Shown here piece by piece: positions 6,752-64,000 of a stretch of DNA of 64,000 nt. Each line of letters starts with the position of its first letter. Positions within the stretch are counted from its first letter, which is position 1. The stretch lies in NCBI GenBank assembly GCA_030278955.1, contig JAOANR010000012.1:25847977-25911976 (forward strand), read 5' to 3'. This stretch comes from Hygrophila difformis. Taxonomy: Eukaryota > Streptophyta > Magnoliopsida > Lamiales > Acanthaceae. The translations under genes were made by a program, and so were the position numbers. The notes under the pieces are model-generated. The model was given only the letters and a program-made list of their open reading frames with translations, made no database searches and was not told the DNA's origin.

Positions 6752-7132
6752 TCATTTAATTCTGATGGTGTGACCCTTCAGATTAAATTCTATACCATTA
6801 TCCTTTCTTACCCATGGTTTATGATTTTCGAGAAAACTTAATCCCAAAATCATAACCCCATTGTCTTTTCCGGCGGTGCCTAAGACTCTGATCTCGTGTC
6901 CTGCAATTTCAATTGTTCCTTCATAGGTTCCAATTGATGGCTGCTGCAAGTAGTATAAGTCATCACATGGAAAACGGTTAATTTTTTCAGTGATGTCGAA
7001 TATTGCTCGTATTTCTTTCCATCCTTCAAGGCATTTAATTTTTATATTATCTACCCCAATGGATTGAGGAGTTAGATCTTTGATGAACTCCTTCCCTTTA
7101 TATGCCATAATTCTGTCTTCCGAAAAAGACAT
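6752..7132 (-). pseudogene. Protease-like region between movement protein and RT
   Basis: A 126-codon frame overlaps the movement ORF by 61 bases. Its C-terminal part has ILGLSFLENHKPW, like the hydrophobic ILG-x2-F segment near the end of retroviral-type aspartic proteases. The likely D-S-G active-site segment lies downstream near 6680 in another frame, which is the reverse of the expected order. Either the region is rearranged or this is a linker preceding the protease. Confidence applies to viral origin more than to the domain label. Confidence 0.5.
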
Positions 7133-30732: not shown

Positions 30733-30737
30733 ATCTT

Positions 30738-33137
30738 ACCCAAGGAAATAGATCTATCACTAGCTATTATAATGATCTCAAATCTCAGTGGCATGCTCTA
30801 AAAGCCTTGAAACCCTTTCCAAAAACTTGTAGTGCAGAAACACTAAAGGCTCTTAAGGATTCAGAGGAGTATGAGTTGTTTGTACAGTTTTTGATGGGGG
30901 TTAATGCTGACTTTGAGCATGTTAGCAATCAGATTCTCCTAATGGATCCTCTTCCTCATGTTAGTTGTGCTCATGGGATGCTGTGTGGTATTGAGCAAAA
31001 GGGCAACAATGGAGGAGACAGTTCAAACACATCTAACTTTGCTCTAGCAGCTGTTGATAGAGGAACTGTGGACAAAGGTGTTGGTCGAGGGAATAGTGTC
31101 ATTTGCTCCTACTGCAAGAAGACAGGTCACACAAGGGAAAAGTGTTATCAGTTGGCTAACAAAAATGCCTATTGTGACCATTGCAAGAAGAGTGGCCACA
31201 GTAGGGCTAATTGCTTCATGGTCTCAGGTGTAATACCAGACTGGTACAAGACCTTAGCTGAGAAAAGGAAGAACAAATCTGTGGTTGGTGCTGTGATCAC
31301 AGGGCCTTCCAAAGGTGTCAGTGGTGAGGACTTGGAGGTCAGAATACTCTCCAAGATTGAAGCCAAATTGGATGAGTTTGCTAAGAATCAGTCTGTGAAT
31401 CTTCCAACACCAATGGACTTTGCTGGAGGAGTGTTTGACAGAGAGATATTTGAACTTGCAGGTAATACTTCGGACTCCAACTTTCTCAGAGGCTCTTGGC
31501 TATTAGACTCAGGTGCTAGTAGTCATCTTTGTGCTGATATTACCTACTTGATTGACCCTCAGCCTTTTAGATTCAACAAGTCAATATTTCTGCCAGATGG
31601 CTCTATCAAAACCCCTACTCACATTGGTTCAGTTAGATTATTGAAAGATCTAATTGTTCCAAATATTTTATTTGTTCCTGGATTGATTCTCAATCTCCTG
31701 TCTATTAGCCAACTCACTAGAGAGCTGCAATGTCTAGCTATTTTTGATCCAACCTCATGTCTTTTGCAGGACATGAAATCTAAGAAGACTTTGCTCAAGG
31801 GTACTCTCCTACATAACCTTTACTCTTTCTGCTATGATAGAAATATTGCTCAATATTGTTTTCCTACTCTCACTACTGTAAGCAAGCCCAGTAATTTTGA
31901 TCTTTGGCACAACATTCTTGGGCATCCCTCCCCCTTAGTTATGTCTAAATTGGGTTTTAACCCTGAGGACAAGAATAAATTGCCCTGTAATACCTGTTCT
32001 ACTTCAAAACTGCATAGATTGCCTTTTTCATCCAGTGATTCTCATGCTTCTTCATGTTTTGACTTGATACACTGTGATCTCTGGGGACCATTCTCTATAG
32101 GAGATAGATCCAATTACAAGTATATTCTAACCATTGTTGATGATTGCTCTAGAGCAACTTGGTTGTATTTGTTGCATCATAAATCTGCTACCTCTGAACT
32201 GCTATCTTCCTACTTCACTTATGTTAAAACTCACTTCAATAAGCTGGTTAAGGTGGTTAGAACTGATAATGGTAGTGAGTTTTGTAACAAATCCTGTTTG
32301 AATCTGTTCACCTCTCTTGGGATTGTTCACCAAACTTCATGCATATACACACCTCAGCAAAATGGTAGAGTGGAGAGAAAACATAGACACTTGATCCAAG
32401 TTGCCAGAAACCTCCTTCTCACATCTTCTGTTCCAAAAAGTTACTGGGGTGATGCTATGCTTTTAGCAACCCATCTTATCAATAGACTCCCTACCTTAGT
32501 CCTTGATTGGAAATCTCCCTGTGAAGTCTTACTTGGTCAAAAACCTGACATCTCTTCACTTCACTGTTTTGGTTGTTTATGCTATGTCAAAATTCCTCAT
32601 CCTTCAGGGAAGCTTGATGCTCGAGGCCTGAAGGGTGCATTTCTTGGGATGGCTCCAGGGAAGAAAGGGTATAAAGTCTTAGTGCTTGATAGCAAAAAGG
32701 TAGTTGTCTCAAGGGATGTAGTATTTCATGACACTATATTTCCCTTTGATCCTAGCCAATCCTTGTCTCCATCCAATATCAGCCCTTCCTCTCCTTCTTC
32801 CCAAGAACCTGCTCTTGATCTGCCTATCCTTCTCTCCTATCCCTCTACATCTCATCAAAATTCTCATGAAATCTGTGAGCAGCCCACTGCTACTCACCAT
32901 AAAGCTGACTCTCTTGGTGATCCCACTGATCATCATGATACACAGCACTCCCCTCTGATCTCTCACAGATCAGTGAGTCATACTCATGATGTCTCCTCCT
33001 CCGTCTCTCCTACTGAGAGACATGACTCATTACACTCCATTGAGTTGCCTGCTAACAACTCAATCTCAGATTTTCCATCTCCTATGGGAAATCCTCCTTC
33101 ATCTAATTCTTTTTTCAGCACTAGAGAAGCTACTTAA
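30738..33137 (+). pseudogene. Copia gag C-terminus, protease and integrase
   Basis: It continues the frame broken at 18610. Two CCHC knuckles occur, CSYCKKTGHTREKC and CDHCKKSGHSRANC. Protease follows with LLDSGASSHLC, then the pre-integrase LWHNILGHPS with CNTCSTSK, and the integrase core with HCDLWGPF, VVRTDNGSEF and PQQNGRVERKHR (the D, D and E residues). A TAA at 33135-33137 ends the frame in the low-complexity Ser/His/Pro linker before RT, where most Copia polyproteins read through. The enzymes look otherwise whole. Confidence 0.93.
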
Positions 33138-33143
33138 GCACCT

Positions 33144-34755
33144 GTGGCTCTTGCCAGACCAAAGAGAAATATTAAGAGGCCAGCTAAGTATAAAGACTAC
33201 ATCTGTACATCCATTGATAGCATTGATCAAGTGCCCTCCTCTTATGATCAAGCTCATGGCATCCCTCACTGGGATAAGGCCATAAATGATGAAATTGCTG
33301 CATTAGAAAAGAATGGGACTTGGGATGTTGTGTCTTTACCTGCAGGGAAGAAACCCATAGGATGTAAATGGGTGTTTAGAGTAAAGTGCAACCCTGATGG
33401 ATCAGTTAACAAACATAAAGCTCGTCTTGTGGCAAAAGGGTTCCATCAGAGGTTTGGCAAAGACTTCTTTGAGATATTTGCCCCTGTTGCCAAGACTATC
33501 AGTGTAAGACTGATTATTGCTCTTGCTGCCTCTCATCGATGGAGTCTCTCTCAAATGGATATCAATAATGCATTTTTACATGGCAAGTTAGAAGAAGAGA
33601 TTTATATTGTTTGCCTTGAGGGACTTGCCTCATCCTCAGGACAGGTCTGCAAACTAAAAAAAATCCCTATATGGCTTGAAGCAAGCCCCCAGGCAATGGT
33701 ACACTGCCCTTAAAACTTTCCTCCTTACCTCAGGTTTCAAGTGCACTTACTCAGATCCATGTGTGTTCTTCAAGTTTACCTGTGTTGGAATCATTATCCT
33801 AGTGGTCTATGTGGATGATATTCTGATCACAGGAGAAGACACAGATGCTATTACTGACATCAAGAAGAGTCTGCACAGAGAATTTACCATTAAAGACCTT
33901 GGTGATGCCTCTTATTTCCTTGGGCTTGAAATCTCCCAATCCTCTTCAGGTATCTCTGTCAGTCAACATAAATATGCTATGGATATTGTCTCTGAAGTTG
34001 AGCTCCCTGCAACTTCCAAAGTTCACATCCCCTGCATTCCTCATCATCAATATGACACCTCTGGACCTCTCTTTGATAGACCTCAGTTGTTTCGAAGGCT
34101 AGTTGGAAAGCTTCTCTACCTAGGCTTCTCAAGACCTGATATCTGCTTCAGTGTGCAGCAACTAAGCCAACACATGCATGAGCCCACTGTCAACCATTGG
34201 AATGGAGTGATCCAGGTTCTGCAATACATTAAAAATACCCCTCACATTGGGCTCCATTATCCTTTTGGTCTCTCTCTTGAATTAAAAGGTTATTGTGATG
34301 CTGATTGGGGCAATTGCCCTACCACTCGAAAATCTCTCACTGGATTCTGTATCTTTCTTGGAGACTCCCTCATCTCCTGGAAAACTAAGAAGCAAGACAC
34401 AGTCTCAAGAAGCTCTACTGAGGCTGAGTATCGCAGCCTTGGAGTCACTGCAGCAGAACTCATTTGGGTTGGTTCCCCCTTCAAAGAGTTGCACCTGTCT
34501 CTACCTACCCCTTATCCCTTGCACTGTGATAACATGTCAGCAATCCAACTTGTCAAAAACGCCATTCATCATGAACGAACTAAGCATCTTGATGTGGGAT
34601 GTCACTTTGTCAGGGATCACTTCCAACAAGTTCTCATTGATCCCCTTTATGTTCCTACTACCCACCAGCTTGCAGATGTGTTTACAAAAGGCTTAACTCC
34701 TCGACATTTTCACCTCTTTTGCTCCAAGCTGAAGCTGTGGAATGCTCCAGCTTGC
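33144..34755 (+). pseudogene. Copia reverse transcriptase and RNase H
   Basis: RT begins with CKWVFRVKCNPDGSVNKHKARLVAKG-type sequence (33360-33450) and DINNAFLHGKL. The frame shifts by one base in an A-rich run near 33655-33665, and the second frame carries QAPRQWYTAL, the catalytic YVDDILITG box and DLGDASYFLGLEI. RNase H follows with GYCDADWG, SSTEAEYRSL and HCDNMSAIQL. It ends just before the polypurine tract. Confidence 0.93.
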
Positions 34756-34783
34756 GGGGGGGGGGGGGGGGGGGGGGGAGGGG
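34756..34783 (+). other. Copia polypurine tract with 23-G run
   Basis: 23 consecutive G followed by AGGGG, directly against the 3' LTR. It is the plus-strand primer site. Length may be affected by slippage in the genome or in sequencing. Confidence 0.85.
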
Positions 34784-35080
34784 TATTGAGCATGAGGAGA
34801 TGAAGCCAAGAAAGGTTGCAGAGCTCGACTGGCAGCAGCATAGGAGATGAAGGCTTTTGTTTTGTTGTTTTTTTTGTCTTTTGGGCTTATGTCTCATACT
34901 GGGCTTATTTTCCTGTTAATGGGCCATTCCTGTTACTGGATCCATTCATTAGCCTTAGCCCATTAGTTTGAGTGTATATGTTCCAGTATTTTCCTTTTGC
35001 AAAGTGTAACAAACTTATTCTTTCGCACTCATCAATGGAACAGCATTTCCCTTCTTCCTCATTCTCTCTCAAGTTTCACA
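34784..35080 (+). repeat. Copia 3' LTR
   Basis: 297 bp, matching 17804-18096 except for one substitution near the end and four inserted bases. It is followed by the TTAGC target duplication. Confidence 0.93.
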
Positions 35081-46792: not shown

Positions 46793-47628
46793 ATATTATA
46801 TATAGGTCACCAAAAAAATAATTTATATATATGAAGTATGTATCAAAAAAGTTGTTATATTAATAGATAGATTTATATATGCAATCAAAATAATTTATAT
46901 AAAAAGAATTATATCTTTTAAAATATACATGAAGATTTTCACACGAATTTGTTATATTAATAGATTGATTTGTTTTCTAAACTTAGATATTGGTGACGTG
47001 GTCGATGACATGGCATTACTGGGCAATTACTCAGCATCTATGTGTCTTTGCAAGAGCCGTTGATTTAAAAATGAGTCCATAATGACTGATTAACCCCTGA
47101 AAATTAAGAAGGATAGATTAATTTTAATAAGGACAAAAGAGTCTGCACATACCAAAAAGTATTCAGGATTTATTATATAGATTCGCAGTGTATATATCGA
47201 ATTTATATTAAAAGATACATTAATGAATATATGGAAAATATTTATATACATTAATTAATGTATATATAGCTATGTTTTCACAAAAATATGCCACTTTTCC
47301 TAAAAGTAATATACAATTATATAGTTGCTAATAGTTAAAAAGAATATATTTTATAATTACATCATTCATTTGTATATAAATATATACTAAATAATATAAA
47401 TTTTATATATGTTTTATTATATAAAACCTAATACAAAACAATTATAATTATTAATTGGATTGTGAAAATTTAAAATCTATGGATAAATTGGTTTGGAGTA
47501 AATTAATTATTTTTGTAAAGTATATTATGAATAAAAGATCAGATATATAAAGAGTTATTGGGGTGCGAATAGATCCATGAATAAATAAAGAATGAAAATT
47601 TAATTTTTTTAATATATTTTTTAAGAAT

Positions 47629-47924
47629 TACTCTCTCTGTTTTATAATAAGTGTAACAATATAAAATGACATGGGATCTAGGTAAGTTAATAAAATTGAT
47701 TTAGTTGAAATTCAATAATTAATTAAATAGAATAAGATGAGTCACATTTGACTTTATTCCTTTCGAGTTTTGTTTTAATGAATATCAAAAAATTATTAAT
47801 TTAAGTATAATTAGTAAAAATTATTAACATTCAAAACATTCCAAATATGTAACGTAACACCTATTTCCAAACACCCAAAAAAGGAAAGTGTAACACTTAA
47901 AAAAGGTAAAAAATGGAGGAAGCA
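47629..47924. mobile_element. Stowaway-like MITE (second family), intact copy
   Basis: About 296 bp with TACTCTCTCTGT at the left and degenerate GGAGGAAGCA at the right. Its interior is the reverse complement of the element at 13618-14181 without the nested insertion. Confidence 0.78.
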
Positions 47925-47989
47925 ATTTATTAATCTATATTTTAACAGATTTACAATTGACGAAAAAATAAATATAAATCTAGCTTTCT

Positions 47990-49596
47990 TAAAAATTGAA
48001 AGGATAATTGTTGCAAATTCTATAAGTTTGAAAATTTTATCTGGAATGCCGTACTGAATAAAGTTTTAACGTCTGAAACAGATAATCTATTGATACTAGA
48101 AGAGATATATTATGATAAGGAAGAAATGAAGACGGATCATGCTAAGTTATTACATTTGTTGATTGATGAGCAGAAGAATGTTTATAATAAAATAATATAT
48201 GTAGTTGATAGTGATGGGGGTTGATAATTTATCTAGAAAATACTATGTTTTAGCCCTTAATAGGAGATGTGATATTATGTTGCCTGTAGCATCAAGTGGA
48301 ATAGCACACCTACTTCTTCCAGGAGGTAGGACTACAGATTCTAGATATGATATTCCACTAGATTGTGACGAAAATTCTACCTGCAAAAAATTACCCCAAA
48401 AAATATTTAACATCTCTTCTCATTAAAACAAAGCTCAATATTTGGAATGAAATTTTTGATTGGTAGAAGCCCGTCTGAATTAACCAAATTCTCCATTCGT
48501 TTTTTGAGGAAAAAATTCATACTCGCAGTTTGTTTTACTATGACTATAAGGAAAAAAAAAGTTAATACCAATCTTTAAAGAATATTTGATTCTATCTTGA
48601 AAAATCAGTTTTTACCCGTATCAGTGATTTGTTGCAATATCTTGTGTCACTGGAAAGAGATGACTCAAAGTATTAATGAGGTATATAATTAATAAGATTA
48701 ACTCAAGATACAATAAGAAATGTTGTTTACAATAAAAATTATATATGACAGAAATTTGCACAATGAATACTTTAGGTAGGTGATGGAAATTGGTAAAGTT
48801 GGTATTGATATTGGAGATGTACAATTAGATGTGATATTTCTAGATGATAATTTTATAAACTCTTCGGGAGATCTTATAGTGGCAATTGTTGAGAGACTTA
48901 TATAAATATAAAGTGCACTACTTCATATGCAAACATTGTTACTATATATTAACCCCTACCAATTAGATCGTTGATACGATCAATAATTACGTCATGGAAC
49001 GTATGTTTGCAAATGAAAAATACATATATATCAGTTCTAACAATATTTGTCAAGACGATGAAAACATGGCAATGAATTATTTTCACTGGAATATCTAAGT
49101 ACGATCAATTATTTGGTCTACCAAATCATGAAATATAGTTGAATGATGGCTGCATAGTCATATTTCTTAGGAATATAGATCCATCAAATAAATTATGCAA
49201 TGGAAATAAGTTGATAGTAACCAAGATGCAGAACCATATAATTAAGGTTAAATTAATTTTATGGAAACCATGAAAGTAGAAAATTCTTGATTGGTAGAGC
49301 CTATTTGATTTTACCAAATTTCTCATTTGATTTCAGAAAATTATCACTCGCAGTTTGTTTTGCTATGATTATAAACAAAATTCAATGTAAACATTTAAAA
49401 AATGTTGGACTTTATCTTCCAAAACCAATTTTTAGCAGTTATGTTACAATATTTCGTGTCACAAGCAAAATGTGACTCAAAGTATTAATATGCAATTAAG
49501 AATGACTAACTTAAGATATCACAAGAAATGTTATTTACAATGAAGTTTATATATGACGGAAAAATTGCAAAATAGATATTTGATGTAAGTGACAGT
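47990..49596 (+). pseudogene. Helitron PIF1-type helicase relic, partly duplicated
   Basis: Translations in shifting frames show helicase pieces in order: EQKNVYNKI near 48170, CDIMLPVASSGIAHLLLPGG at 48262-48320 and IPLDCDENSTCKK near 48350. Later pieces are IDPSNKLCNGNKLIVTK near 49170 and AMIINKIQ followed by LKNVGLYLPKP near 49350-49430, ending FRVTSK. These are motifs of the DNA helicase domain of Helitron transposases. Many stops and shifts make it non-functional. A segment of roughly 0.8 kb is present twice (48440-48990, and 49240-49596 plus 63793-64000). The second copy is split by the Gypsy element. Confidence 0.82.
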
Positions 49597-50523
49597 TGTA
49601 AACACGTGAAATTTATTCGCCACTAAAAATGCGACACGTGCAAATTTAAATATTAATTTAATTAATTTTAGGCATTTTAAATAAATTAAATGCTTGAAAT
49701 AATTATTAATATTTATTGGGCCATTTGGATCCATCAAGCCAAATGGATTTAATTGGGCCAATGTGGACAAGTCCAAATGAAAGACCCACAAGCCCCATGA
49801 CTCAATAATGGATGCTCGAAGCAGGCCAGCCCATGAGAATTAATCAATGTGCTTAAGTCCAAATGAAAGACCCACAAGCCCTATGATCCAATGGACACTT
49901 GAAGCAGGCCAGTCCATGGAATGCAGTCAATGTGAACAAGCCCAGATGAAAGGCCCACATGACCCGATAAAAACGTGGATTGGACCAATCCATCGATTGG
50001 CCCATCACCCACAATCCCTAGGGTTTTCCCTCTATAAATAGAGGTGTCCCTTGCACACATTGGGACGACTACTTCACTTCCGGAAGTCTCCATACACTAC
50101 TCACTCTCAAGACTCATATACTTGAGATTCTACAGCAACAAAATGCTGCAGAAATATTAAAGAGGCGAAGAAAAATCAAATACACTTCTGCAACCTCTAA
50201 ACAATCATACTCTGAGACTCATACACTCAGACACATAGAGAGACGACTCATACACGTCTACTCATTCTCAAGACTCATACACTTGAGATCCTATAGCAAC
50301 AAAACGCTGTAGAAATTCCGAGAAGCCGGAGAAGAAGCATAAAAGCATCTCGACGTCTTCAAAGTTGGAGAAATCAAAGGAGTACCAGAAGTCAAACCCA
50401 TATTGTTTGATTTTCTATATATTCTTTGATATTAAAATTTCTCTGTAATTTGTAGACGATTTTATTGTGAAATTAATAAAAGTATTTTGCAGTTGCTGTC
50501 TACGCATTTTTTTTGCACCTACA
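49597..50523 (+). repeat. Gypsy 5' LTR
   Basis: It runs TGTAAACACGTG to CACCTACA. A TATA box TATAAATA at 50033-50040 puts the RNA start near 50065. Downstream, the leader contains six hairpins (50105-50312). Confidence 0.93.
50105..50312 (+). other. Array of six leader hairpins with two shared loops
   Basis: Four stem-loops share the loop ACTCATAYA. They are TCTCAAG/CTTGAGA (50105-50127), TCTGAG/CTCAGA (50211-50231), AGACG/CGTCT (50241-50259) and TCTCAAG/CTTGAGA (50266-50288). Two others share loop AACAAAAY on a CTACAGC-type stem (50130-50151 and 50291-50312). Stem sequences vary while pairing is kept. The array follows the predicted RNA start by about 40 nt and precedes the primer site by about 215 nt. 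It is repeated in the 3' LTR from 63366. Confidence 0.8.
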
Positions 50524-50526
50524 GAT

Positions 50527-50546
50527 TTTGGCACGCCCAGTGGGAC
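50527..50546 (+). other. Gypsy primer-binding site candidate (not Met-tRNA)
   Basis: TTTGGCACGCCCAGTGGGAC lies three bases after the 5' LTR. It resembles the TGGCRC-type primer sites of Tat-like elements; the tRNA was not identified. Confidence 0.65.
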
Positions 50547-50589
50547 TCTTCTGCCTTTCATCTCCTCCAGACGTCGTCAATGAAATCCA

Positions 50590-52350
50590 ATGGCTTCAAG
50601 GAACACCTCCAAGAGCAACTCTTCAACATCCGGTGCCGCTATGCCCAATGTCACCACAAGGAACATGAAGAAAGCAATGGAGGCCGCCGATGCTGCGCGG
50701 GGAAAAGAAGTTGATGCGGATATGCCGCTGCTAGAAGAAGGAAACGACCATAGATCGGGATCTTCCACGCCGTTGTCAAGCCCGCGGGGAGATCAAGAAG
50801 AGACATCCGCCCTGCGTCATGCTGCTGCAATGACAACCCAAGCCAGCACTCTTGAAGAGCAAATGGCCAACCTGACAAAGATCGTGGAAATGCTTGCGAA
50901 GAGATCCGAGTTGCAAGATGCACGTATGGAGCAAATGATGAACAGACTGGATGGCTCTAACGGCGGCCAAGCGGTGAACAAACCCGTGGAGATCCGCGAC
51001 GATGGAGAGACTTCCCGGCAAGGCGCTTCGGCAAAAGGAAAAACAACCGCTGACGTCCAAGTCACTCCTGACGGCTTCATCTCGGCTGATCAACTGAAAG
51101 AGTTCATCACGGGAACGCTGAAGGAAGAGGTCTCGGCAGGATCAAAATCCTCCTTGACGTATCTCAAGCCATACAGCGCCCGCATCGACTCACTGAGGAT
51201 GCCGGCAGGCTATCAACCGCCCAAGTTCCAACAGTTCGACGGCAAAGGGAATCCCAAGCAACATATCGCCCATTTCGTGGAGACATGCAACGAAGCGGGT
51301 ACGTTTGGGGATCACCTCGTCAAGCAGTTCATTCGTTCACTAAAGGGAAATGCATTCGAATGGTATACTGACTTGGAACACGGTAGCATCGACAGTTGGG
51401 ATCAACTCGAGCAAGAGTTCCTGAACCGTTTTTACAGCACTCGGTGAACCGTCAGCATGATGGAATTGACGAACACGCAACAATCGAAGGGCGAGCCGGT
51501 GATTGACTACATCAACCGCTGGAGGAGCCTAAGCCTCAACTGCAAGGATCGTTTGTCTGAGACGTCGGCAATTGAGATGTGCATCCAAGGCATGCAATGG
51601 GGTCTACGATACATCCTGCAAGGCATTCGTCCCCGAACATTTGAGGAGCTTGCAACCCGTGCTCACGACATGGAGCTAAGTTTGGCGTCAAGTGGAGCCT
51701 ATGGTCCGCCCGTTCAACAAACTCGTGCAAACAATCGAGTCGAATGGGAGAAGAGAGGCGAACCACCGTCAAAGCCGCCAACAAAGGATGCGATTGCAAC
51801 AAACGCCAGTTTCGTGAAGGTACGTGGGAAGGAGCCGGTGACAAGCGACAAGCCAAAGCCACCACAAGCTCAACGTCAAAGGTCGTCGTTGGAAGATAGA
51901 CGGGCTAAGACGTACCCATTCCTTGACTCCGACTTACCGGGCATCTTCGATGACTTGATGAAAGAAGATCTCATCGAGCTACCAAGGATGAAACATCCCG
52001 AGCAAGCGGGGATGACCAACGACCCACTATACTGCAAGTACCACCGTTTGGTGAGCCACACGACCCAAGATTGCTTCGTTTTCAAAGACAAAGTCATGGA
52101 TCTCGTCAAACAAGGCAAAATCACCTTGGCAAACGAAGCAGAGACGGCCAACACTATTTCCATCCAAGTTGGATCGATCGAGATCAAAGTTCCCGACAAG
52201 TCCACAACGTGCAACACTGTCTTCGAAATCGGGAGCACGTCAAAGCAAAACCACACCAAACAAGTTGTGGATCATTCACATCTCAACGAATGCATGCTTT
52301 CCATCATGTTCAATGACGACGACATGCCGATTGAGCTGGAGAATTCGAAG
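50590..52350 (+). pseudogene. gag: Gypsy gag
   Basis: The frame begins at 50590, runs 285 codons to a TGA at 51445-51447, and continues in frame. The N-terminal half has a coiled coil (LEEQMANLTKIVEMLAKRSE). The capsid-like domain spans the stop, with PKFQQFDGKGNPKQHIAHFV, FEWYTDLEHGSIDSWDQLEQ and [20 protein letters not shown] non-canonical zinc motif, [20 protein letters not shown], follows near 52030. These are hallmarks of Tat-lineage gag proteins. Confidence 0.88.
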
Positions 52351-53856
52351 GCTCATAACCGACCATTGTTCGTCGTTGGATACGTAGACAACAAGCGAGT
52401 AAATCGCGTCCTGATAGATGGAGGTTCTGCCGTCAACATCATGCCACTTCACACCCTGAAGGAATTGGGCATCTCGGAGGAAGAACTATCCAATAGCAAA
52501 ATGTTGATACAAGGCTTCAACCAAGAGGGGCAAAAAAAAAATCCCTTGGTGCAATCCGAGTCCGGCTGCAAATTGATGACATGGCTGCAAGCACGTACTT
52601 CCACGTCATTGATGCAAGGACATCATACAACATGCTTCTTGGTCGGACATGGATCCACGAGAACGGCGTCGTCCCTTCAACATGGCACCAATGCTTCAAG
52701 TACGTGCACAACGGCTTCGTCAAAAGGGTTATCGCCGATGACAAACCATTTGCGGTGGCCGAGTCTTATTATGGGGATGCTAAGTACTACCTTGAGGCGT
52801 CCAAAGCTAAGGCACCTTCGTTGGAGGAAGAAGAACGTAAAGAGAGTCAACCAACCCGTGAAGACAAAGGAAAATCCATCCTGGAAGAAGCATTCGAAGG
52901 ACTTACACTCCCGCTAACGCCAATTGATCCCGGCACATCACAGAAAGTGTTGAAGATTCAACTCAAAGGCAGTGAGACACGTCGACTGAAGAACGATAAA
53001 GAATTCGGTCCGAAAGCATTCAAGCTGCTCGCCAAGTCTGGCTTCAACCCAAATGAGCCATCGCCGTTGGGAAAGCTCCCGGACAACAATCGGAGAAAAG
53101 GTGATCGGAGTGGACTTGGGTATGTTGCGAAATTCGACACGGCGCCCCAAGCATCGAAGGCACCCATATTCGTCAAAGCTGAACAAACAGTGAAGGCACC
53201 GGTTCGTATCATCATAAAACGAGCTACGACCAATTACATCACCGAAGAAGCAAATCAAGAGGATCATGCTCCAAAGGACCAAACTGCAAGAAAGTCAGCA
53301 TTTGATCGCATCAGTAGTCCGTCAAAAGGAGAGCCAAAACAGAGTGTCCACAATAGACTTGGGTCAACAGAGACGGCCGAACACAAAGAATCTGTCTCCC
53401 GCCGGCTTGGAGCAAACGAAGAAGCGAAGCCAAGTGTTTTCGATAGACTCGGGGTTGTTGCCAGACTCTGCAAAATTCGTCTTCAAAAGGCTAGGTTCTA
53501 CAAAACGCCAATCACAAAACAAAGCATCGGCAAGCGAAGAGCGGTCTCTAGTAAAGCAAGGAATATTGGACGACTCGAACTACGACAACAATGTGAGAAG
53601 CATAGTGCCGTCCCGCATGAAATGTCAAGTTGAATGGACTATCTCATCTGACGAATGGCTGAAGCTCAAGAAGCGGACCATCATCTTCACAAAGCATGAC
53701 GAAGATGACCAAGCTGACGGAGTTGAATCCATCAATCATATCACTGTTGGACGTGACGAGTCAAAAGAGGAAGATGCTAACGCAGCACCAATGCAACTTG
53801 AAGAAGAAATCAAGGTCACGATGGATGAACTGCATGAGGTGAACTTTAGGCGATGA
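52350..53856 (+). pseudogene. Gypsy aspartic protease and linker
   Basis: The protease active site is [13 protein letters not shown] (near 52410-52445). A run of ten A (52532-52541) shifts the frame, and the next frame has [20 protein letters not shown], the conserved C-terminal protease segment. A long Lys/Glu/Ser linker follows with repeated RLG phrases (VHNRLGS, VSRRLGA, VFDRLGV, VFKRLGS). Another shift lies in the overlap near 53460, and the frame ends at 53856. Confidence 0.8.
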
Positions 53857-53878
53857 AAATGAGCCTCGCCCAACATTT

Positions 53879-54390
53879 ATGAGCACCCTACTGACCGTAA
53901 ATGAAGCAAAGAAGTATGTGCCGCTCCTTCAAGAGTTCAAAGACGTCTTCGCATGGCCCTACAAAGGAATGCCCAAGCTGGACCCCAAGATAGTCGTCCA
54001 TCATCTCGCACTCTTTCAAATCTTCAAGTTTCCAAACTCTTCAAGAGGATCAAGCTCAAAAGCCCCTCATGAAGCCTTCAAAACGCTATTTAAAGCAGCT
54101 GCAAGTGCCAAATCCCTCAAGAGGATCAAGCTCAAAGTCCGTCCTGAGGTCCTTCAAATCTTTAAGTCGCCAAGCTTTCAAGAGGATCAAGCTCAAAGCC
54201 CCTCATGAGGTCCTACAAATCTTTAAGTCTCCAAGCCTTCACGAGGATCAAGCTCGAAGCCCCTCCTGTAGTCTGTCAAATCTTCGAAGTCCTTAAGCCC
54301 ATTAAGAGGATCAAGCTCAAAAGCCCCTCTCGAAATTCTTCAAAAGTTCATGCCTTCAACAGGATTAAGCACAAAAGCCCCTATTGAAGT
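53879..54390 (+). pseudogene. RT N-terminal stump followed by 60-bp repeats
   Basis: About 42 codons (LLQEFKDVFAWPYKGMPKLD, then VVHHLA) match the start of Tat-type RT. The sequence then switches abruptly at about 54004 into about six imperfect ~60-bp repeats with the core AAGAGGATCAAGCTCAAA (54034-54375). The RT fingers, palm (YVDD) and RNase H are absent. The same repeat occurs after integrase at 55880-56055. Confidence 0.85.
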
Positions 54391-54465
54391 AAGCAAATGC
54401 ATTCTTGAAGAGTTAAATCACCTCCAAAGATGTCGAAAGATCATCTCAAAGTTCTTCATGGTCCA

Positions 54466-55419
54466 TGTCAAACATGTCTTGTGCGGATCTTCATCAAATT
54501 GAGGCCATTCACCAACGTCCTGAGCCGTTGCATCCGACTATGGCATCATGACCGTTTGACAACGCATGGGAATGGACATCGCCGGACCGATGCCAAAGTC
54601 TTCCGGGGGTATGTCTACATCCTTGCCGCAACCGACTACCTCTCCAAGTGCGCTGAAGCTGCACCCCTTAGAGAAGTCAAAGGGGAACATGATGCAAGTC
54701 TCATCTGAATCAACATCCTCTACCGTTATGGCATCCCGCATTACATCATGACAGACAACGGACGGTCATTTGTCAACAGCACCATCACCAAGTTGTGTGA
54801 GAAGTTTGGATTTATTCAACGAAAGAGCTCAGCGTATTATCCACCAGCAAATGGACTAGCGGAGGCCTTCAACAACACCTTATGCGGATTGTTGAAGAAA
54901 GTTGTCTCCAAGTCAAAACGAGACTCGCATGAAAGAATCAATGAAGTTCTATGGGCATATCGAACAACTTTCCGCACACCCACAAAGGCAACGCCATACT
55001 CGTTGGTCTATGGAGTGGAAGCCATGTTGCCACTGGAAACTAAAATCCCCTTGCTAAGAGTCGTCATCCGGTAAGGGCTCACTGAAGAGGACAACGCCCG
55101 GCTGCGTTTGGAAGAATTGGAAGCCCTTGATGAAAGAAGGCTCGAAGCGCAATAAAGGTTGGAATGCTACCAAGCCCGTTTGTCCAAGTTCTACAACAAG
55201 AAAGTCAAAGCACGATCGTTCTCAGTCGGAGATCTCGTCCTTGCAATCCGAAGACCCATTGTCATCAACTACCGCAGTGGGAACAATTTCACCTCCAAAT
55301 GGGATGGACCGTATGTCATCACGGAAGTCTTCACAAACGGAGCCTACATGATGATTGATAACGATGGAGTGAGCGTCGGACCGATAAATGGGCGGTTCTT
55401 GAAGAAGTTCTATGCTTGA
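54466..55419 (+). pseudogene. Gypsy integrase
   Basis: Core pieces in two frames: GMDIAGPMPKSSGG and YILAATDYLSKCAEAAPLRE (first catalytic Asp region), then IMTDNGRSFVNS and SSAYYPPANGLAEAFNNTL (second Asp and Glu). The C-terminal segment (55159-55419) has FSVGDLVLAIR, WDGPYVITEV and INGRFLKKFYA. Stops at 54706-54708 and around 55072 and a shift near 54600 inactivate it. Confidence 0.88.
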
Positions 55420-55650
55420 AGAATGGACAAGGAAAATGCTCCTTGACGCACGAGCCTAAACTGCACGTCACACACACAAAAAAAAATGCAAAAAAAATGT
55501 AATACTCCTGGCCCGCAAGAGTATAAACTGTGTACGGCTCAAAATAAACAAATTCAATTTGTTTTGAACTACGTAATGGCTTGATCCCTTCACAGGGTAC
55601 GTAGGCAACTTGGATATCAAAATTCTAAGTTCAGTCACGGCAAAAAAAAA

Positions 55651-55875
55651 AGTAATTGGGTTAATTAAATTTAATCCTTTACTTGAAAAAATTTTGAGTA
55701 ATTGGTCAATAAAGTTGATCCATTACTTTAAAAATTTTGAGTAATTGGGTTAATTAAGTTGATCAATTACTTAACAAAAAATGAAGTAATTGGATTAATT
55801 ATACCGATCCATTACTTGACCAAAAATTGAGTAAATGGATTAATTAAATTTGGTCCATTACTTAAGAAAAAATTC
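55651..55875 (+). repeat. Five-unit ~45-bp minisatellite
   Basis: Units start at 55651, 55697, 55740, 55785 and 55830. Each begins AGTAATTGG and contains ATCCATTACTT-like text; lengths are 46, 43, 45, 45 and 46. It lies 230 bp after the integrase stop in the Gypsy 3' non-coding region. Within a unit AGTAAT and ATTACT can pair. Confidence 0.92.
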
Positions 55876-55879
55876 TTCA

Positions 55880-56055
55880 GAAGAAACAACTGTCAAAGTC
55901 CCTCTGGAAGTTCTTCAAACTTTTATGAGGATCAAGTCAAAAGTCCTTCAAATCTTCAAGTCTCTAAAGCTTCAAGAGGATCAAGCTCAGAGCCTCTCTC
56001 GAAGGTCTTCAAATTCATACCTTCAACCGGATCAAGCCCAAAGCTCCTGTTGAAG
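55880..56055 (+). repeat. Second block of the 60-bp repeat
   Basis: About three imperfect copies of the AGGATCAAG-CTCAAAG repeat also found at 54034-54375. A flanking unit (GCACGAGC-TTAAACTGCACGT, GGGATACGTAGGCAACTTGG) also occurs twice, near 55445-55610 and 56360-56520. Confidence 0.8.
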
Positions 56056-57349
56056 CAAGGAAATGTGTTTTTGGAGAACCAAATCACCTTCAAGAATACC
56101 AATAATCCATCTCGAAGTCTTCATGGTACGCGTCAAGTGCATATCACGTGGATCTTCATCAAATTGAGGCCCGTGATACAAAATTCCAAGGTAACACGTT
56201 GAAGACATAATTCTGGAGACCAAACGCATCTTCAACACAGTCCAATTGTCCAACGGGAGCTGACTGGGGGCAATGGCCTAAAGTTCATGCGACGAACCAT
56301 CAACATAGAAGGTAGTTGACATGATCGTTGCAAAGTCTTGAAAAAAGATCAAAGAAAATGCTCCTTAACGCACGAGCTTAAACTGCACGTTACTCTCTGC
56401 CTACAAGAGTATAAACAAAAATAGGCAAAACAAAATAAGTGATGTAAAAGAAAAAAAATGCATCATTTGAACTACGATGTGGCTCGATTCCCAAAAGGGA
56501 TACGTAGGCAACTTGGCCAAATTCCTAGAACAGCTCAAGTTCCATCAAAATTTAATCCCCCGAAGTTTCTAAAGGTGGTTTTCTTCGTCAACATGTATGC
56601 TATGCAAGACATTCAAGATTGAAAAAAAACAGTAAGGCAAAGAGTGAAGACGAAAACAAAAGTAGTCTTCATTACATCAAAGTTCTGATTACAAATACAT
56701 CGGAGGATTACAAGCCATCAATGGAAAATATTAAAACAACAAAGGAATTCAAGCGCGCCCGCTACAATAAAAACTTGTTGACAGTTGCTTCTTTGTGGTG
56801 CTTCCCATAGTCCACCAACATGACAACAGCTTCAAGTTGATCATCCAAATAATTTTCAAGTTGATGCCAATGATGCCACTGCAAAAAGAAAAAGGGGAGG
56901 GATTATTTCCTTGAAGAGAAAAAAAAAGGAAAAAATACATTTGCAAGATAAATGCAATGTTATTTTTTAATGACATGAAAAAATATTGCAAGATGAAGGC
57001 AATTAAAAAAAAATACATGACAAATTTGGAAAAATTAATTTTAAGTTCATTTTAAATTTTTGGACTTAGAATTAAATTTCCACAAGATCAAGATTTGGGC
57101 AGTACAAAAAAAAAATAATAATATTTACATGTAAACAAAAAAATACATGTTAAATATTGTTTGAAAATAATTTTAAGTTCATTACTAAATTGTGGACTTA
57201 AGATTAAATATTTTTGGGACCTATTCTCAAATACCAAATATGTTGAGGATAAAATTGGGTCTTAAAAAAAAATCTAGGGGTTAACCTTGAATTATCTAAA
57301 CACTAAGGATTAAATCCTAAGATTTAGAAAACCTAGGGGGGCAAAATCT

Positions 57350-58160
57350 AATTACCAAAATATTGGGATTAGAATTATAGGGTTTGGAAGATTTGGGGCA
57401 AAGTGGAATAAAGAAGAAATTGAGTCTTCTTCCTCTCTAAAACCAAAAACAAACGCAGCAGCCCAAATGGAAGAAGAAAACGCAGCAGCCCCATATTTTT
57501 TTCTTTCATCCCCAACCGATCTCCCTCCCTCCGACGCAAGCAGGCGGCCTCCGAGCAGCAATTAACGACAGCGGCGACGGCGCTGGGCTCCAGCGGCGAC
57601 GGGCGGCGGCGCAAGCAGTGGCAAGTGCGGCGGGCACGACGGCGAGACAGCGGCGGCATTCCAGCGGCTCTCCGGCCTTCCTCTCGGCGCGGCGGCGGTG
57701 CAAGCAGCGGCGGCCTTCCCCTCTCTTCCTACAAGCGATGGCGGGCGGCGACGGTAGACGACGGCGGTGCTTCTACGGCAGCAAAGCGGCAACGACAGCG
57801 TGTGGCGGCCCTCCTTCAACAGCCCCAGCGGCGACTCCGGACAGCGGTGGCCTCTTCCCTCCGGCGGCGTCTCTCTCTCTCTCTTCTCGTCGACACTTTC
57901 CATCAGCGGTGGCAGCAGCGCGGCGACGTTCTCCGGGCGCGAGCGGCGGCGGCGTGGAGCGGACCAGCAAGCTGAGCGGCGGACGGCGTCCCTCTCTCTT
58001 TCGGATAGCAGCGGCGGCGGCGACTCTCCTTTCCGGCGACGCGAGCGGCTTCCGACAGGAACAGGCGTGGCAGCGATGGTCTCCGGGATGCGGGCAAGCA
58101 GCGGTTTGCTCTCCTTACAGCGGGACGAATACGGCACGGTGATGCCTCGATGACCATGAC
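57350..58160. other. GC-rich (CGG)-type block in Gypsy 3' non-coding region
   Basis: A sharp island of CGGCGGC-like sequence in an AT-rich element. Overlapping long ORFs on both strands (largest 58314-57562, minus) are Arg/Ala/Pro/Ser-rich and simple, so I do not call a gene. A captured plant 5' exon or leader is possible. Confidence 0.4.
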
Positions 58161-58167
58161 GACTTGA

Positions 58168-58394
58168 TGGCGGGTAGGTTAAGGATTGAGGCCAACGGCA
58201 GCGCCGTGTGACCAACATCCCGTCTACCGAACTCTGTGACGGCAAAAGCGTGGCGGGTAGGTTAAGGATTGAGGCCAACGGCAGCGCCGTGTGACCAAAC
58301 ATCCCGTCTACCATGACGACTTGATGGCGGGTAGGTTAAGGATGGAGGCCAACGGCAGCGCCGTGTGACCAAACATCCCGTCTACCATGACGAC
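58168..58394. repeat. Three-copy ~61-bp repeat
   Basis: Copies start at 58168, 58251 and 58325. Each begins TGGCGGGTAGGTTAAGGAT and ends CATCCCGTCTACC, with variable spacers. They are nearly identical, so the amplification is recent. Confidence 0.92.
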
Positions 58395-59376
58395 AACCAG
58401 GTACCCTCTCTCGCTTTGAATTGATGATAATGTCGGAGATGGAGTCGAAGCATTGTGGTTTGCTCACTGTTACGGAGTTGACAAGAAAAAAAAACCAAGG
58501 AAAACAAAGAAAAACGAAACAAGAATGCAGAAACAAAAAGAAAAATGCACACAGAGTAAAAGAAGACTCATACAAGCAGAAAGAAATCAGGCTTACCTAT
58601 GTTGTCTTGATAATTTCCTTGGGTCACTTGGCTGGAGCTGCCCAAATTAGTAGTATTAATTTACTAATTGGTTGATTGCCTTCCTATGTGCACGAAAGAA
58701 AATGTGTGTCACCTCTGTCTTATTGCTTGTTAATGAGGGGTAATTTATAGAAGCAAGATTAAATCAAATGGAAAAAAAGATTTGATCTTGATCTGTCATA
58801 TGAAATCTTTAAGTATTTTATTTGGATACGATTGGATTATGGATTTGGGAGTTTGAAATCTTTAAATCATGTATGACTGTGGAATTCGAGAAATTGTTTA
58901 TCAAATCCATTCGAATTATTTGCAGAAGATTTAAGATTTGAATCTTCACAAATATTTGGAGCATCCATAATACCAAATTTGAATTAGATATGAATCAAGT
59001 CATATGTGAATCATAATCTGATTGCGATATATTACTTGATATTTGGAGCATACAATATTTGGTGCATCATATATCTGGCATTGATGTGCATACAAGATCA
59101 GATATTGGGCGAATTCAAAGGAAGGAATCCAAGAAAAAAAAAATAGGAAAAATGTTTGAAGAAAAACGAGAGAAGGAAAAAAAGGAGACAAAAAAAAAAA
59201 AGAAAAGGATGAAATAAAAAAAGTCATGAGCCCAACGGGTACAGCAGAAGATGGCAACGAGTGAAAAAAATATTCCAAAGCCAAACAAAATGGGATAGAA
59301 AAAAATATACATATTTCGAGACTCGTTCACGTCTCAAATATTTTATTTCGCCCTAAACAAGTCTCGAGGGGGCATC

Positions 59377-62300
59377 TGTAAACACGTGAAATTTATTCGC
59401 CACTAAAAATGCGACACGTGCAAATTTAAATATTAATTTAATTAATTTTAGGCATTTTAAATAAATTAAATGCTTGAAATAATTATTAATATTTATTGGG
59501 CCATTTGGATCCATCAAGCCAAATGGATTTAATTGGGCCAATGTGGACAAGTCCAAATGAAAGACCCACAAGCCCCATGACTCAATAATGGATGCTCGAA
59601 GCAGGCCAGCCCATGAGAATTAATCAATGTGGATAAGTCCAAATGAAAGACCCACAAGCCCTATGATCCAATGGACACTTGAAGCAGGCCAGTCCATGGA
59701 ATGCAGTCAATGTGAACAAGCCCAGATGAAAGGCCCACATGACCCGATTGTAATACCCCAGATTTTTATCAACGCCCAAATGAATAAAAATTTATTCCGA
59801 TCAATGTCGAAATATATCCGAGAAGAAGAAAATAATTTATCACAATAAATTATTGCTCGGATATGAAACGCCGATAGATTTAAATTCAAAATGGAATAAA
59901 AGAGGGAAAGGAAGCCCGAAGACATTCCATGAATTGAGTCAAGATAATTGGAATTAAATTCAAGAAGGAAAAGAATTTTAATTCCAAGAACCCGTGAAGT
60001 CGGAAGAAATTTAATGATACAATCGCAATCAATCAATCGGTCAATAAGTCGCGCAACTTCGGGGACGAAGTTGATTCTTAAGGAGGGTAGATTGTAATAC
60101 CATAGAAATTGCCCGAAATATATATATGAATATATATTTTTGATTAATTCACTAAGTAGATTTTTAATCAAATCTATATATATTTATATGTTCAAATATG
60201 TGCTTAAAGATTAGTATATTATTTTCTACAAAACATACTTTGAAAAATTATATATATTTGTCTTTTCAAATAAATATATGGATTTCAATATCAAGTGTAA
60301 TAAGTATATGGTTCATAGAATATTTTAAATCCATATACAAGTTTATATACACATATATACCTTGGTCTTGAAATAATCTTTCCAAACATGTACACATGTA
60401 TATACATGTATATATTTACATGTTTAAATTATAATGAGAATTATCTATTTTCTATATATCCTTGATTAATCATTCTACCCATATATTTTTTTATTATGGG
60501 ATTATTCTAGAATGCCATAATATAATTGGGAATAATTTGACTATGGTTTGAAATTGTAGGGTGGAATATTAATCATATCTTGTCATTTTCAAATAAAGAA
60601 TATATTCCTTTTTGAAGCTATGTATGACTTACAAGATCACAAAAATTCCCACATTATGATTTTTTTTTAAGATAAGTCGGGCATTATGCATTTTGGGTCC
60701 CAAGCTATGTATGACTACTGTAGCAGTCGGGCATTATGCATTTTTGGCGACTTTTTGCCATTTTTTGGGTCCCAAAGGTGGGAATCTTGATCTATCACGG
60801 GGGAGGCATATTTTGGATGATTATAGAGGTCCCTAACACTCCATTGTCAGCCATTTTCATCAATCATTCACCCCAAAACTCTCCCAAAACTCTCCCAAAG
60901 CCAAACACTCTTCCGACGAACTTCCGGCGACTTTCCGACGAGTTTCCGGCAACCAAATCCAACCAAAGAAGTGTGTAGATCAAGGATTGCAGGCTTTGGA
61001 TTGTTGGTAAGATGTTATTCAAGTTTCCTTATGATTTTAAGATCATAAACATCATCCTAACTTACGAATCTTCGTATTCAAACACAAATCGGAGCCAAGG
61101 GAAGAATAAATCGGGTGGAAGAGATTCGTTCGTGACATCCCGTGGATTCCGGACGACCCCGTGACTTCCTAGACATCATCCCCACTGTAAGTTAACCTTA
61201 CTATGGTTTTGGGTGACTTAAAATGCAACCAAACATAGAGATTTAGAAACTCTAAAATCTGTCAACAAGAAAAACCCCCGGCGCAGCGTTTTCATATGAA
61301 TTTTTCGAACCCTTAAAAGTCTTCAAACGGAAAAACCCAAAAAATGAAAAACGTTCCTAAGACTTAGGTCTAGCTTCTGTAAAAATTTCGGAATTTTTCA
61401 TGTTGTTTTGAAACCTGAAACCGACCCAAAACCGAAGAGTATTAAATCTGGATCTTAGAACTTTGGCAGATTTCACTCTCAATCTTGTTGGTTATTTTGA
61501 CCTTGGATCTAGGCCGATCTAGGATTGGAGTTGAACATAAGAATTGTAGATCTATGAGTTTAGAACATCTCTGTAAGTTTTTAGAATTTTTCATTGAAAT
61601 TTGAACCTCCAAACTCGAGCCGATCCGATCTGCGTTAGAACCGATGTCAAGAACCTTGACAGATTTCATAATCAAACTCGACGAGCAAAACTCTTACTTC
61701 GAGTGTTCAAACCTGAAAACTCAAAACTAAGATTTTGATCCAAAGATCATAAGCTATATTTTGTAAAAATTTCAGAAATTTTCATCAAGTTTTGATACCC
61801 CAAAACGTGTCGGACATATTCTGCGTCTTTAGGAATTGTCAAAGGATGACAGATTTCATATCCAATCTTGATGAGCTTATTCCTATCATTTCTAGGCCGA
61901 ATCAATCTTCATGATCTAAACAAAAGTTGTTGGAAATCATGTCTAGTATGTCTCTGTAAAATTTCAGAATTTTTGGAGTCCATTTGATATGATAAAAAGT
62001 CGAATCTTTTAACGTTGTCAAACCTGAATCCTGACAGCTTTTTGTTTCTGTCGAAAACTTGATTTTTGACATGCTTCCCATCGTTTTTCCGAAAAACTTA
62101 AAACATGAAAGTTGTTCATTGGGATGTTTTTGAGTTGCTGTACAAATTTCAGAACAATCGCCTAAGAAATGGATTTTTAAACCAAAAAGGCGCAAACTGT
62201 GACATCGATCGATTTTTGAAATCTTTTAAACAACGATCGAGACGTTGGAATTACGATAAAGCTATATTTTTTAAAAATCCCGTTACACCAAATAAAAACA

Positions 62301-63792
62301 TTTTCTTTAAAAGAATTCTTTTGAAACATTGGGGACTTGTGACCAAGTTTGACGTTATCAATATGATTCATGCGGGTTTGATTCCCAATGATGTATTTGA
62401 GTTCTTGCGGGTTAGATTCCCCAAGGGCGATTGTATGTTTTCCTGCGGGTTAGATTCCCCAGGATGTATTGAGTTCTTGCGGGTTAGATTCCCCAAGGGC
62501 GATTGTATGATTTCCTGCGGAAATATTGGTTATGAGGATTGCGGTCACAAGAGCCCTGGTGAATGGTGAACTATAAAAGAAACGAAAAATATTTTGAGAA
62601 GTGATATTTTTGAAATTGGCTGAGGCCGCCGGATCACCGGCTAAATGATACTTTTGATATTGGCTGCGGCCGCCGGATCACCGGCTAAATGATATATTGT
62701 TGAGATGATGGCGTAACGGGAAATATATTAAAATGACATGATACTTATGAAATTGGCTGCGGCCGCCGGATTGCCGGCTAAACTAAACATTGTTGAGCAA
62801 GAAATGTTTTTATAAAATTTAACTAAAGGCTTTGAAACCCCTAACCCATGCTATGTGTTAGCTTACTCAGCGCGTTTTTGCTGACCCAAACCATATATCT
62901 CCTTTTTCTTACAGAGTACGAAGAATATGCATCGTCATATGCATACATGGGAACATTAGGGGAAATCTCTATTTTAAATCCCTGCATTAAATTACGACTT
63001 GCATGAACGGGCCTGTTTAACCCGTGTTTTGGCCATGTTGGCCCTATATTTAAATTTCCGCTGCAACTCTGATGTATTATTTTTAAATTATCTATGAATG
63101 GGCTGTTTGAATATTTTAAATTCTGAAAAACCATAGCCTTGCATCTCTTTAGTGAGCTCGGAGAAACCGTGTCTTGCTAGGGAGGTGTGGCGGTGGCATC
63201 CCGGCCTGGGTTACCAAAACCGGGGTGTTACACCGATAAAAACGTGGATTGGACCAATCCATCGATTGGCCCATCACCCACAATCCCTAGGGTTTTCCCT
63301 CTATAAATAGAGGTGTCCCTTGCACACATTGGGACGACTACTTCACTTCCGGAAGTCTCCATACACTACTCACTCTCAAGACTCATATACTTGAGATTCT
63401 ACAGCAACAAAATGCTGCAGAAATATTAAAGAGGCGAAGAAAAATCAAATACACTTCTGCAACCTCTAAACAATCATACTCTGAGACTCATACACTCAGA
63501 CACATAGAGAGACGACTCATACACGTCTACTCATTCTCAAGACTCATACACTTGAGATCCTACAGCAACAAAACGCTGTAGAAATTCCGAGAAGCCGGAG
63601 AAGAAGCATAAAAGCATCTCGACGTCTTCAAAGTTGGAGGAATCAAAGGAGTACCAGAAGTCGAACCCATATTGTTTGATTTTCTATATATTCTTTGATA
63701 TTAAAATTTCTCTGTAATTTGTAGACGATTTTATTGTGAAATTAATAAAAGTATTTTGCAGTTGCTGTCTACGCATTTTTTTTGCACCTACA
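59377..63792 (+). repeat. Gypsy 3' LTR, interrupted
   Basis: It is preceded by a polypurine-like CGAGGGGGCATC. Removing 59749-63232 and one CCGAT copy leaves 927 bp, the exact length of the 5' LTR. The TATA box is at 63302-63309. The hairpin array is preserved; its one base difference from the 5' LTR turns a G-U pair into a G-C pair. Confidence 0.93.
59749..63232 (+). mobile_element. Internally deleted chromovirus-like element in the Gypsy LTR
   Basis: CCGAT flanks both sides (59744-59748 and 63233-63237). The left part (59749 to about 60012) is an LTR head, TGTAATACCCCAG, matching solo LTR 2 in places. Then come about 80 bp of internal tail with a hairpin (60054-60073) and polypurine tract TAAGGAGGGTAGAT, then a full right LTR (60093-63232). 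The right LTR head (TGTAATACCATAG) differs from the left. It has a donor TTG/GTAAGATG at 61017, an acceptor TTACAG at 62914, and repeats at 62350-62575 (TGCGGGTTAGATTCCCCA) and 62605-62790 (GGCCGCCGGATCACCGGCTA). It is non-coding. Confidence 0.85.
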
Positions 63793-64000
63793 ACAGTAAA
63801 GCAGGTATTGATTTTGAAAATATATAATCAGATGTGACATTTTCGGAAGAGATATTTATCAGCTCTACGAGTGATCTTATAACGGTCATTTTTTAGAGTG
63901 CATATATAAATATAAACTGCACAACTTCAAATTCAGACATTTTTAAAAATGTTATTCTACCCCTACCAATGAGATTTTCAGCAAATTGTAAGGAATTTTT
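63793..64000 (+). pseudogene. Helitron helicase relic, continuation
   Basis: Beyond the Gypsy element the sequence resumes the helicase duplication. It aligns by eye with about 48795-48990, including GTATTGAT, GATCTTATA and CCCCTACCAAT in the same order. It runs off the window. Confidence 0.7.

Follow-up and report, generated by a model that had tools for sequence, protein, structure and literature searches.

The 5' leader of a young LTR retrotransposon in the window (the whole 64,000-nucleotide stretch of Hygrophila difformis DNA analysed) carries four hairpins in which one nonamer loop, ACTCATAYA, is closed by three different, fully paired stems. The best reading of this array, to which we give about as much belief as doubt, is that weak hairpins in a ribosome-scanned leader repeat a single-stranded candidate protein-binding motif.

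The element is delimited by a 5' LTR of 927 bp (TG...CA; 49597..50523, plus strand) identical at 922 of 927 bases to the 3' LTR (59377..63792, plus strand), which contains the same array from position 63374 and is interrupted by a 3484-bp insertion (59749-63232) with CCGAT on each side. The insertion has the ends TGTAATACCCC and GGGGTGTTACA, and may be the solo LTR of a different element. The pentamer ACAGT lies directly outside the element at both ends (49592-49596 and 63793-63797), so that a near-identical TG...CA LTR pair, a short target duplication and a primer-binding stretch 3' of the 5' LTR, the marks of an LTR retrotransposon, were all found. The last of these, TTTTGGCACGCCCAGTGGGAC (50526..50546, plus strand), which we take to be the primer-binding site, has 288 exact copies in the genome (915 Mb in 246 contigs), against none for its reversed control; a variant, TTGGCGCGCCCAGTGGGAC, was found at seven places, and a comparison of the stretch with viral contigs gave no matches. 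A gag frame starts at 50590 and remains open to a stop at 51445-51447 (50590..51447, plus strand; PF03732, E 2.3e-05); 809 of 2064 candidates were relatives, with the best, among 120 listed, in Sesamum and some named Ty3-gypsy. The integrase match was weak (E 0.0028, under the cut-off) and no reverse-transcriptase domain was matched in the frames scanned, which were part of all frames. The Ty3/Gypsy superfamily is marked by a related gag and by an integrase that follows reverse transcriptase; the element is probably a plant Ty3/Gypsy-like one, putatively of the Tat lineage, no reverse-transcriptase domain having been found for placement in a tree. This copy looks defective, though young. A 61-bp tandem repeat (3.7 copies, 54103-54329) takes the position expected for the coding sequence of reverse transcriptase. 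Transcription would start about 30 nt downstream of a TATA box, TATAAATA (50033..50040, plus strand), and R, of about 440 nt, would lie between the TATA box (50033) and the AATAAA (50475) and include the array.

The hairpins with a 9-nt loop (in brackets), all on the plus strand, are hairpin A, of the H1 type, TCTCAAG[ACTCATATA]CTTGAGA (50105..50127); hairpin B, TCTGAG[ACTCATACA]CTCAGA (50211..50231); hairpin C, AGACG[ACTCATACA]CGTCT (50241..50259); and hairpin D, also of the H1 type and a second copy of A, TCTCAAG[ACTCATACA]CTTGAGA (50266..50288). The nonamer thus occurs once as the first form and three times as the second. Folding of 50063-50590 placed all four in both the MFE structure (-134.4 kcal/mol, z -5.6) and the centroid, and none of 100 shuffles folded as low. 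Set against the four same-loop hairpins on three stems of the window leader, dinucleotide shuffling of the 461-nt leader yielded not even two same-loop hairpins with a 9-nt loop in 5000 trials (one mismatch allowed), and, when only the sequence outside the loops was shuffled, no trial in 200000 closed at least three of the four loops with five Watson-Crick pairs. The description of these four hairpins in the sequence-only reading is therefore borne out at the positions given above and far exceeds chance, and so is its view that an RNA-level structure of the LTR leader, with one loop motif over several stems, goes beyond tandem duplication alone. Hairpins A and D lie in one duplicated block (50097-50155 and 50258-50316, with 6 of 59 bases different), so that only three of the stems are independent.

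Two interleaved hairpins with an AACAAAAY loop had also been proposed. The second of these H2 copies, CTATAGC[AACAAAAC]GCTGTAG (50291..50312, plus strand), is paired, whereas the first, CTACAGC[AACAAAAT]GCTGCAG (50130..50151, plus strand), has one A·C mismatch; since this mismatch is also found in 56 of 89 related leaders, the first hairpin is less certain than was stated. One of the five LTR-to-LTR differences in 927 bp falls within the array, in the second H2 copy (50294 T against 63563 C), and it does preserve pairing, as U·G or C-G. The H3 region between H2 and B (50161..50198, plus strand) consists of AGAGG/CCTCT around GAAG/CTTC with ATCAAATAC in the loop, and its inner pairs are lost in the window copy. 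Farther downstream lie H5, TCAAAC[CCATATT]GTTTGA (50392..50410, plus strand), and the poly(A) hairpin H6 (50452..50503, plus strand), in which the stem GTAGAC...GTCTAC encloses AATAAA (50475-50480). No Rfam covariance model matched positions 47000-64000 at E values up to 1.

Related leaders were taken from 100 listed places of the 288 with the primer-binding stretch. Ninety were used (30 as loci and 60 fetched), leaving out the window's own copy, L006, L013 and L018 (already included) and the last six; one, L098, is not a leader of the family and was excluded. The resulting 89 leaders do not include the window. One set of loci examined contains both LTRs of one element as well as places taken twice. 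No hairpin of this kind was found in five leaders, one in 29, two in 31, three in four, four in 18, five in one and seven in one; leaders with two often have H5 as the second, the stem GTCGAAC/GTTTGAT at this position carrying the loop ACTCATATC in 29 of the 89. In a tree of the shared 3' part, the array was confined to one clade of 26 rows (support 100/98), with four hairpins in 18 rows, three in four, one in three (L053, L064 and L095) and seven in one (L035). The leader with five hairpins, L073, lies outside this clade and is a chimaera, with an array 5' part joined to the 3' part of another subfamily, as template switching would give. These counts and their placement in the tree suggest that a single H1 followed by H2 was probably the ancestral state, and that the array is derived. 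A further stem for the array loop, CACTGAG[ACTCATATA]TTCAGTG, was found in a leader of another clade (L059). Genome-wide, TCAAGNCTCANNNACTTGA occurs at 839 places (control 0) and ACTCATAYA at 206 places 18-48 nt upstream of TCTCAAGACTCA (control 2), and the pattern for the B-to-H1 junction gave no matches. An unusual additional expansion or rearrangement is seen at G000:C7:23066378-23069361, where 3 kb hold three B-type hairpins with loop ACTCATATA, two of them separated by just 519 bp.

The earlier proposal that the loop is constant while the stems co-vary holds among the hairpins of a single array, but not by descent. At the orthologous H1 of the 89 leaders, the mean minor-letter frequency was 0.034 for the stem, 0.106 for the loop and 0.114 for the whole core, the stem being near-fixed and the loop variable at positions 6 and 7 (0.46 and 0.24, against 0.08 or less at positions 1-5, 8 and 9), so that a constant loop on changing stems describes the comparison within arrays and not the history of one hairpin. 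Within the loop, ACUCA and the final A are the fixed bases. Free variation of the loop, to the extent of the stems, had been named as an outcome that would tell against the proposal, and it is seen in part: taken as a whole, the loop is more variable than the stem, but its ACUCA core is not. The 23-nt segment over H1 ranked 54 of 247 for conservation. The top-ranked segments cover CAAGGTTGGAGGAATCAAAGGAG, which relatives have at the place of about 50362-50384, outside the array; conservation in the leader core is highest there.

Covariation is present but limited, being seen at the outer pair of hairpin B and in the poly(A) hairpin and otherwise weak. At 100 listed of 222 places, with the two LTRs of one element counted apart, the outer pair of hairpin B was U-A in 92, A-U in five and U·G, C·A and A·G in one each; neither U-U nor A-A occurred among these 100, though the search pattern allowed both. 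The A-U state may represent few elements and one event. For H6, 56 distinct rows of 86 were aligned, three with ends corrected by hand, leaving out L067 (no AATAA) and L066 and L113, in which two mismatches in the 3' arm count against pairing. Its outer pair was G-C in 40, G·U in eight and A-U in seven of the 56 rows, and the covariation score was 0.133, against 0.099 for shuffled alignments (0/500 as high), a kind of score inflated by the kinship of rows; the counts of pairs with double changes and of pair types were reached in 448 of 500 shuffles, and sliding the alignment by +3 (three pairs) gave 0.127. The sixth pair of H3 was A-U in 21 of 22 hairpins of the array clade and G-C in nine of 14 in clade 2, and the inner pair was lost in 17 of the 22. 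The RNAalifold covariation term was only -0.31 for 40 leaders hand-picked from the tree; 97.5% of cells were paired for H1 and 84.3% for H2, and double changes at three H1 pairs were traced to the L032 clade, in which the arms are shifted by one base in the alignment. Folding exceeded that of shuffles by a modest margin in the nine leaders examined that have one or two such hairpins (z -1.3 to -4.5), and the z values for two array leaders were -5.1 (L103) and -8.5 (L035).

Departures from Watson-Crick pairing were also compared between R and U3. Copies with G·U outnumbered those with a mismatch 20 to 6 in the R arms, against 66 to 86 in the arms of U3; without L067, the R ratio becomes about 14 to 5 events, and further mismatches in C and B lie outside that count. 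Hairpin C reads CATCT at three places and CGCCT at four (seemingly two elements), and the same survey revealed one mismatch in B and two more wobbles. Five interrupted palindromes were found in each region, a number reached in 3 of 300 shuffles for U3 and in none of 300 for R; the arms differ at 4-5% of sites in the U3 palindromes, 0.7% in H1 and 1.4-1.7% in B and C, the matching cut-off capping all these values. One of the U3 palindromes, CCATTTGG[ATCCATCAAG]CCAAATGG (49721-49746, plus strand), is common to relatives and, because it lies in untranscribed U3, is a feature of the DNA level.

The triplet ATG is strongly avoided in the leaders. In the 82 of 89 with a TATA string (excluding L040, L051, L062, L067, L074, L079 and L115), it was the rarest of the 64 triplets relative to composition (O/E 0.16; 69 in 27,985 nt), averaging 0.84 per leader where dinucleotide shuffles gave 3.85; in the hairpin part, the O/E was 0.08 and 74 of the 82 leaders had none. 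The corresponding values were 1.23 for CAT in the leaders and 2.43 for ATG in the U3 stretch, the latter arising partly from tandem repeats. The leaders are akin and so share one history, and the avoidance spans clades and stops at the TATA box. The window leader has one ATG in the first H2 (50143) and one ahead of gag, at 50580. These observations support the view that R of this family is under RNA-level constraint, to which the conserved poly(A) hairpin also points.

The chief sober rival to the favoured reading, improbable on balance and yet to be taken seriously, is that a G-poor, AUG-free leader simply grew by tandem duplication and template switching, and that its hairpins and their shared loop are a side effect with no binding role. 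The hairpin part of the leader has 14% G, the seven-hairpin leader L035 has a 161-bp tandem spacing in both its LTRs, L073 is chimaeric, copy number has also dropped to one (L053 and L064), and U3 has its own interrupted palindromes. Such a process would account for growth, but not for three different perfect stems around one nonamer, and it leaves the near-fixed H1 stem, the ACUCA core and the U-A/A-U exchange in hairpin B unexplained.

The reading that weak hairpins repeat a protein-binding motif runs as follows. An ancestral single H1 would have multiplied in R, within the 5' leader, and B and C would have joined it, presenting the same loop. Hairpins of such energy are weak enough for a scanning ribosome, and the single hairpins of the leader lie in this range (-3.3 to -9.2 kcal/mol), so that in the RNA they would be weak, separate and openable by a ribosome scanning the leader. 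The ACTCA sites were predicted to be unpaired with a mean probability of 0.79 (206 sites), and the hairpins would display a single-stranded ACUCA, then three less constrained bases and an A. This motif would be a putative docking site, for which Gag or a host protein of the KH/STAR type are candidate binders, more copies would give more avidity, and docking might withdraw this RNA from translation so that it is packaged or stored. In its boldest form, which we regard as rather doubtful, the leader would be a tunable multivalent RNA dock, in which ACUCA...A is multiplied on any stem that holds it, a copy number of 1-7 sets the capture of RNA by Gag or a host KH/STAR protein from translation into packaging or storage, and lineages evolve by adding or losing docks.

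Gag is a candidate because of the position of the array in the leader and because this young, defective copy was probably helped in trans. The sequence-only reading had named a Gag packaging signal as an example of such docking. The version specific to packaging, with the loops as putative sites for the Gag nucleocapsid in a multi-copy psi-like signal, is one that we consider unlikely. It fits the location of the array in the 5' leader, upstream of gag, and the element, being young and lacking a reverse-transcriptase domain in the frames scanned, has probably been copied in trans, for which cis signals would be needed; Ty1, for its part, needs 5'-terminal RNA for packaging (PMC4974528). However, the motif fits other binders too, and its position in R puts the array at the 3' end of the RNA as well. 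In psi, the Ty1 leader and the packaging and dimerization signals of BARE, a structured RNA likewise precedes gag in the 5' leader (PMC4974528, PMC3735527). The likeness of the array to psi is positional; the array differs in having one loop on several stems, in one to seven copies, and its loops are not palindromic, so that no kissing dimer is expected.

For binders of the STAR/KH type, the likeness is in sequence. GLD-1 recognises UACUCA, and its binding is improved by a second hexamer, best at a spacing of 6-12 nt (PMC2905418); the core of the array loop with its closing base reads G-ACUCA, which resembles this site (the Quaking element being UACUAA), but with G rather than U as the first base of UACU(C/A)A, in a plant host and with loops about 20 nt or more apart. 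The cauliflower mosaic virus leader, involved in RNA export, is also structured over several hundred nucleotides in a plant retroelement (PMC12786077), whereas the array consists of many small hairpins in an AUG-poor leader. Leaders that are structured and serve in packaging or export are known from retroviruses, Ty1/Ty3, BARE and plant pararetroviruses; in the literature searched, we found no description of a plant Gypsy-like element in which one loop recurs over several stems in a varying number of copies.

The core motif is locked to one strand. ACTCA occurs in 81 of the 89 leaders (8/89 without it) and its reverse complement, TGAGT, in none; ACTCAT occurs at least once in 70 of 89, with about 4.4 copies each in the array clade, and ATGAGT in none. 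The 89 U3 stretches contain ACTCAT in none, ATGAGT in one, plain ACTCA in 21 and TGAGT in five. These U3 counts of ACTCA and the outer-pair counts of hairpin B point opposite ways, and the balance between the readings stays unchanged. This distribution bears on the idea that the array acts as DNA, ACTCAT being the ACT motif of S1-group bZIP factors, in downstream promoter sites with incidental stems. The ACT motif is usable in either orientation, and here it was found on the plus strand only and in the leader only, being absent from U3, where promoter sites would be expected; in many relatives the motif is broken in the H1 loop by the reading ACTCAA, and the avoidance of AUG speaks for a role in RNA. 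This explanation is thus very unlikely, despite the abundance of ACTCAT in the leaders, the interrupted palindromes in U3 and the known S1-bZIP site of this sequence in the ProDH promoter (PMC8795868).

It is similarly improbable, to a marked degree, that the R hairpins serve to arrange the ends of the RNA for strand transfer or for the choice of poly(A) site, with no binder for the loop: all would lie in R, next to the conserved poly(A) hairpin, and CAACAAA in H2 resembles a poly(A) motif of Sire and Tnt1 (PMC3601003), but for such a function different stems would not have to share one loop sequence. In the long R regions of retroviruses AATAAA likewise lies within a conserved stem, as in H6, and stem-loops have been linked to the conservation of long R regions in a study in which length variation prevented the modelling of plant Metaviridae LTRs (PMC3601003); the hairpin array is additional to this poly(A) hairpin. 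Three further candidates were rejected: loop-loop kissing, as neither ACTCATACA nor AACAAAAY is complementary to itself or to the other loop and only five minus-strand matches to the former with one mismatch occur in the element, four of them in the nested insertion; a strong block to scanning, for which the single hairpins are too weak; and mimicry of the tRNA-Met anticodon loop, presumably CUCAUA, since the CAU of the array loop reads CAA in many leaders.

The way an LTR element divides one RNA between translation and packaging is unsettled even in yeast, for which a review of Ty1 and Ty3 describes packaging sequences as not clearly defined (PMC4974528). The compact repeated motif of this young plant family of high copy number, whose individual copies bear one, three, four or seven hairpins, provides a ready series for testing what recognises RNA of this sort.

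Two other elements were observed in the window. Remains of an endogenous pararetrovirus (7072-8830, minus strand) contain a viral movement protein domain (PF01107, E 2.3e-31), adjoined by a weak Caulimovirus coat domain, just under the cut-off (E 1.4e-05), and a weak zinc knuckle. A Copia-type element (30675-34803, plus strand) has integrase core, SH3-like and RVT_2 domains.
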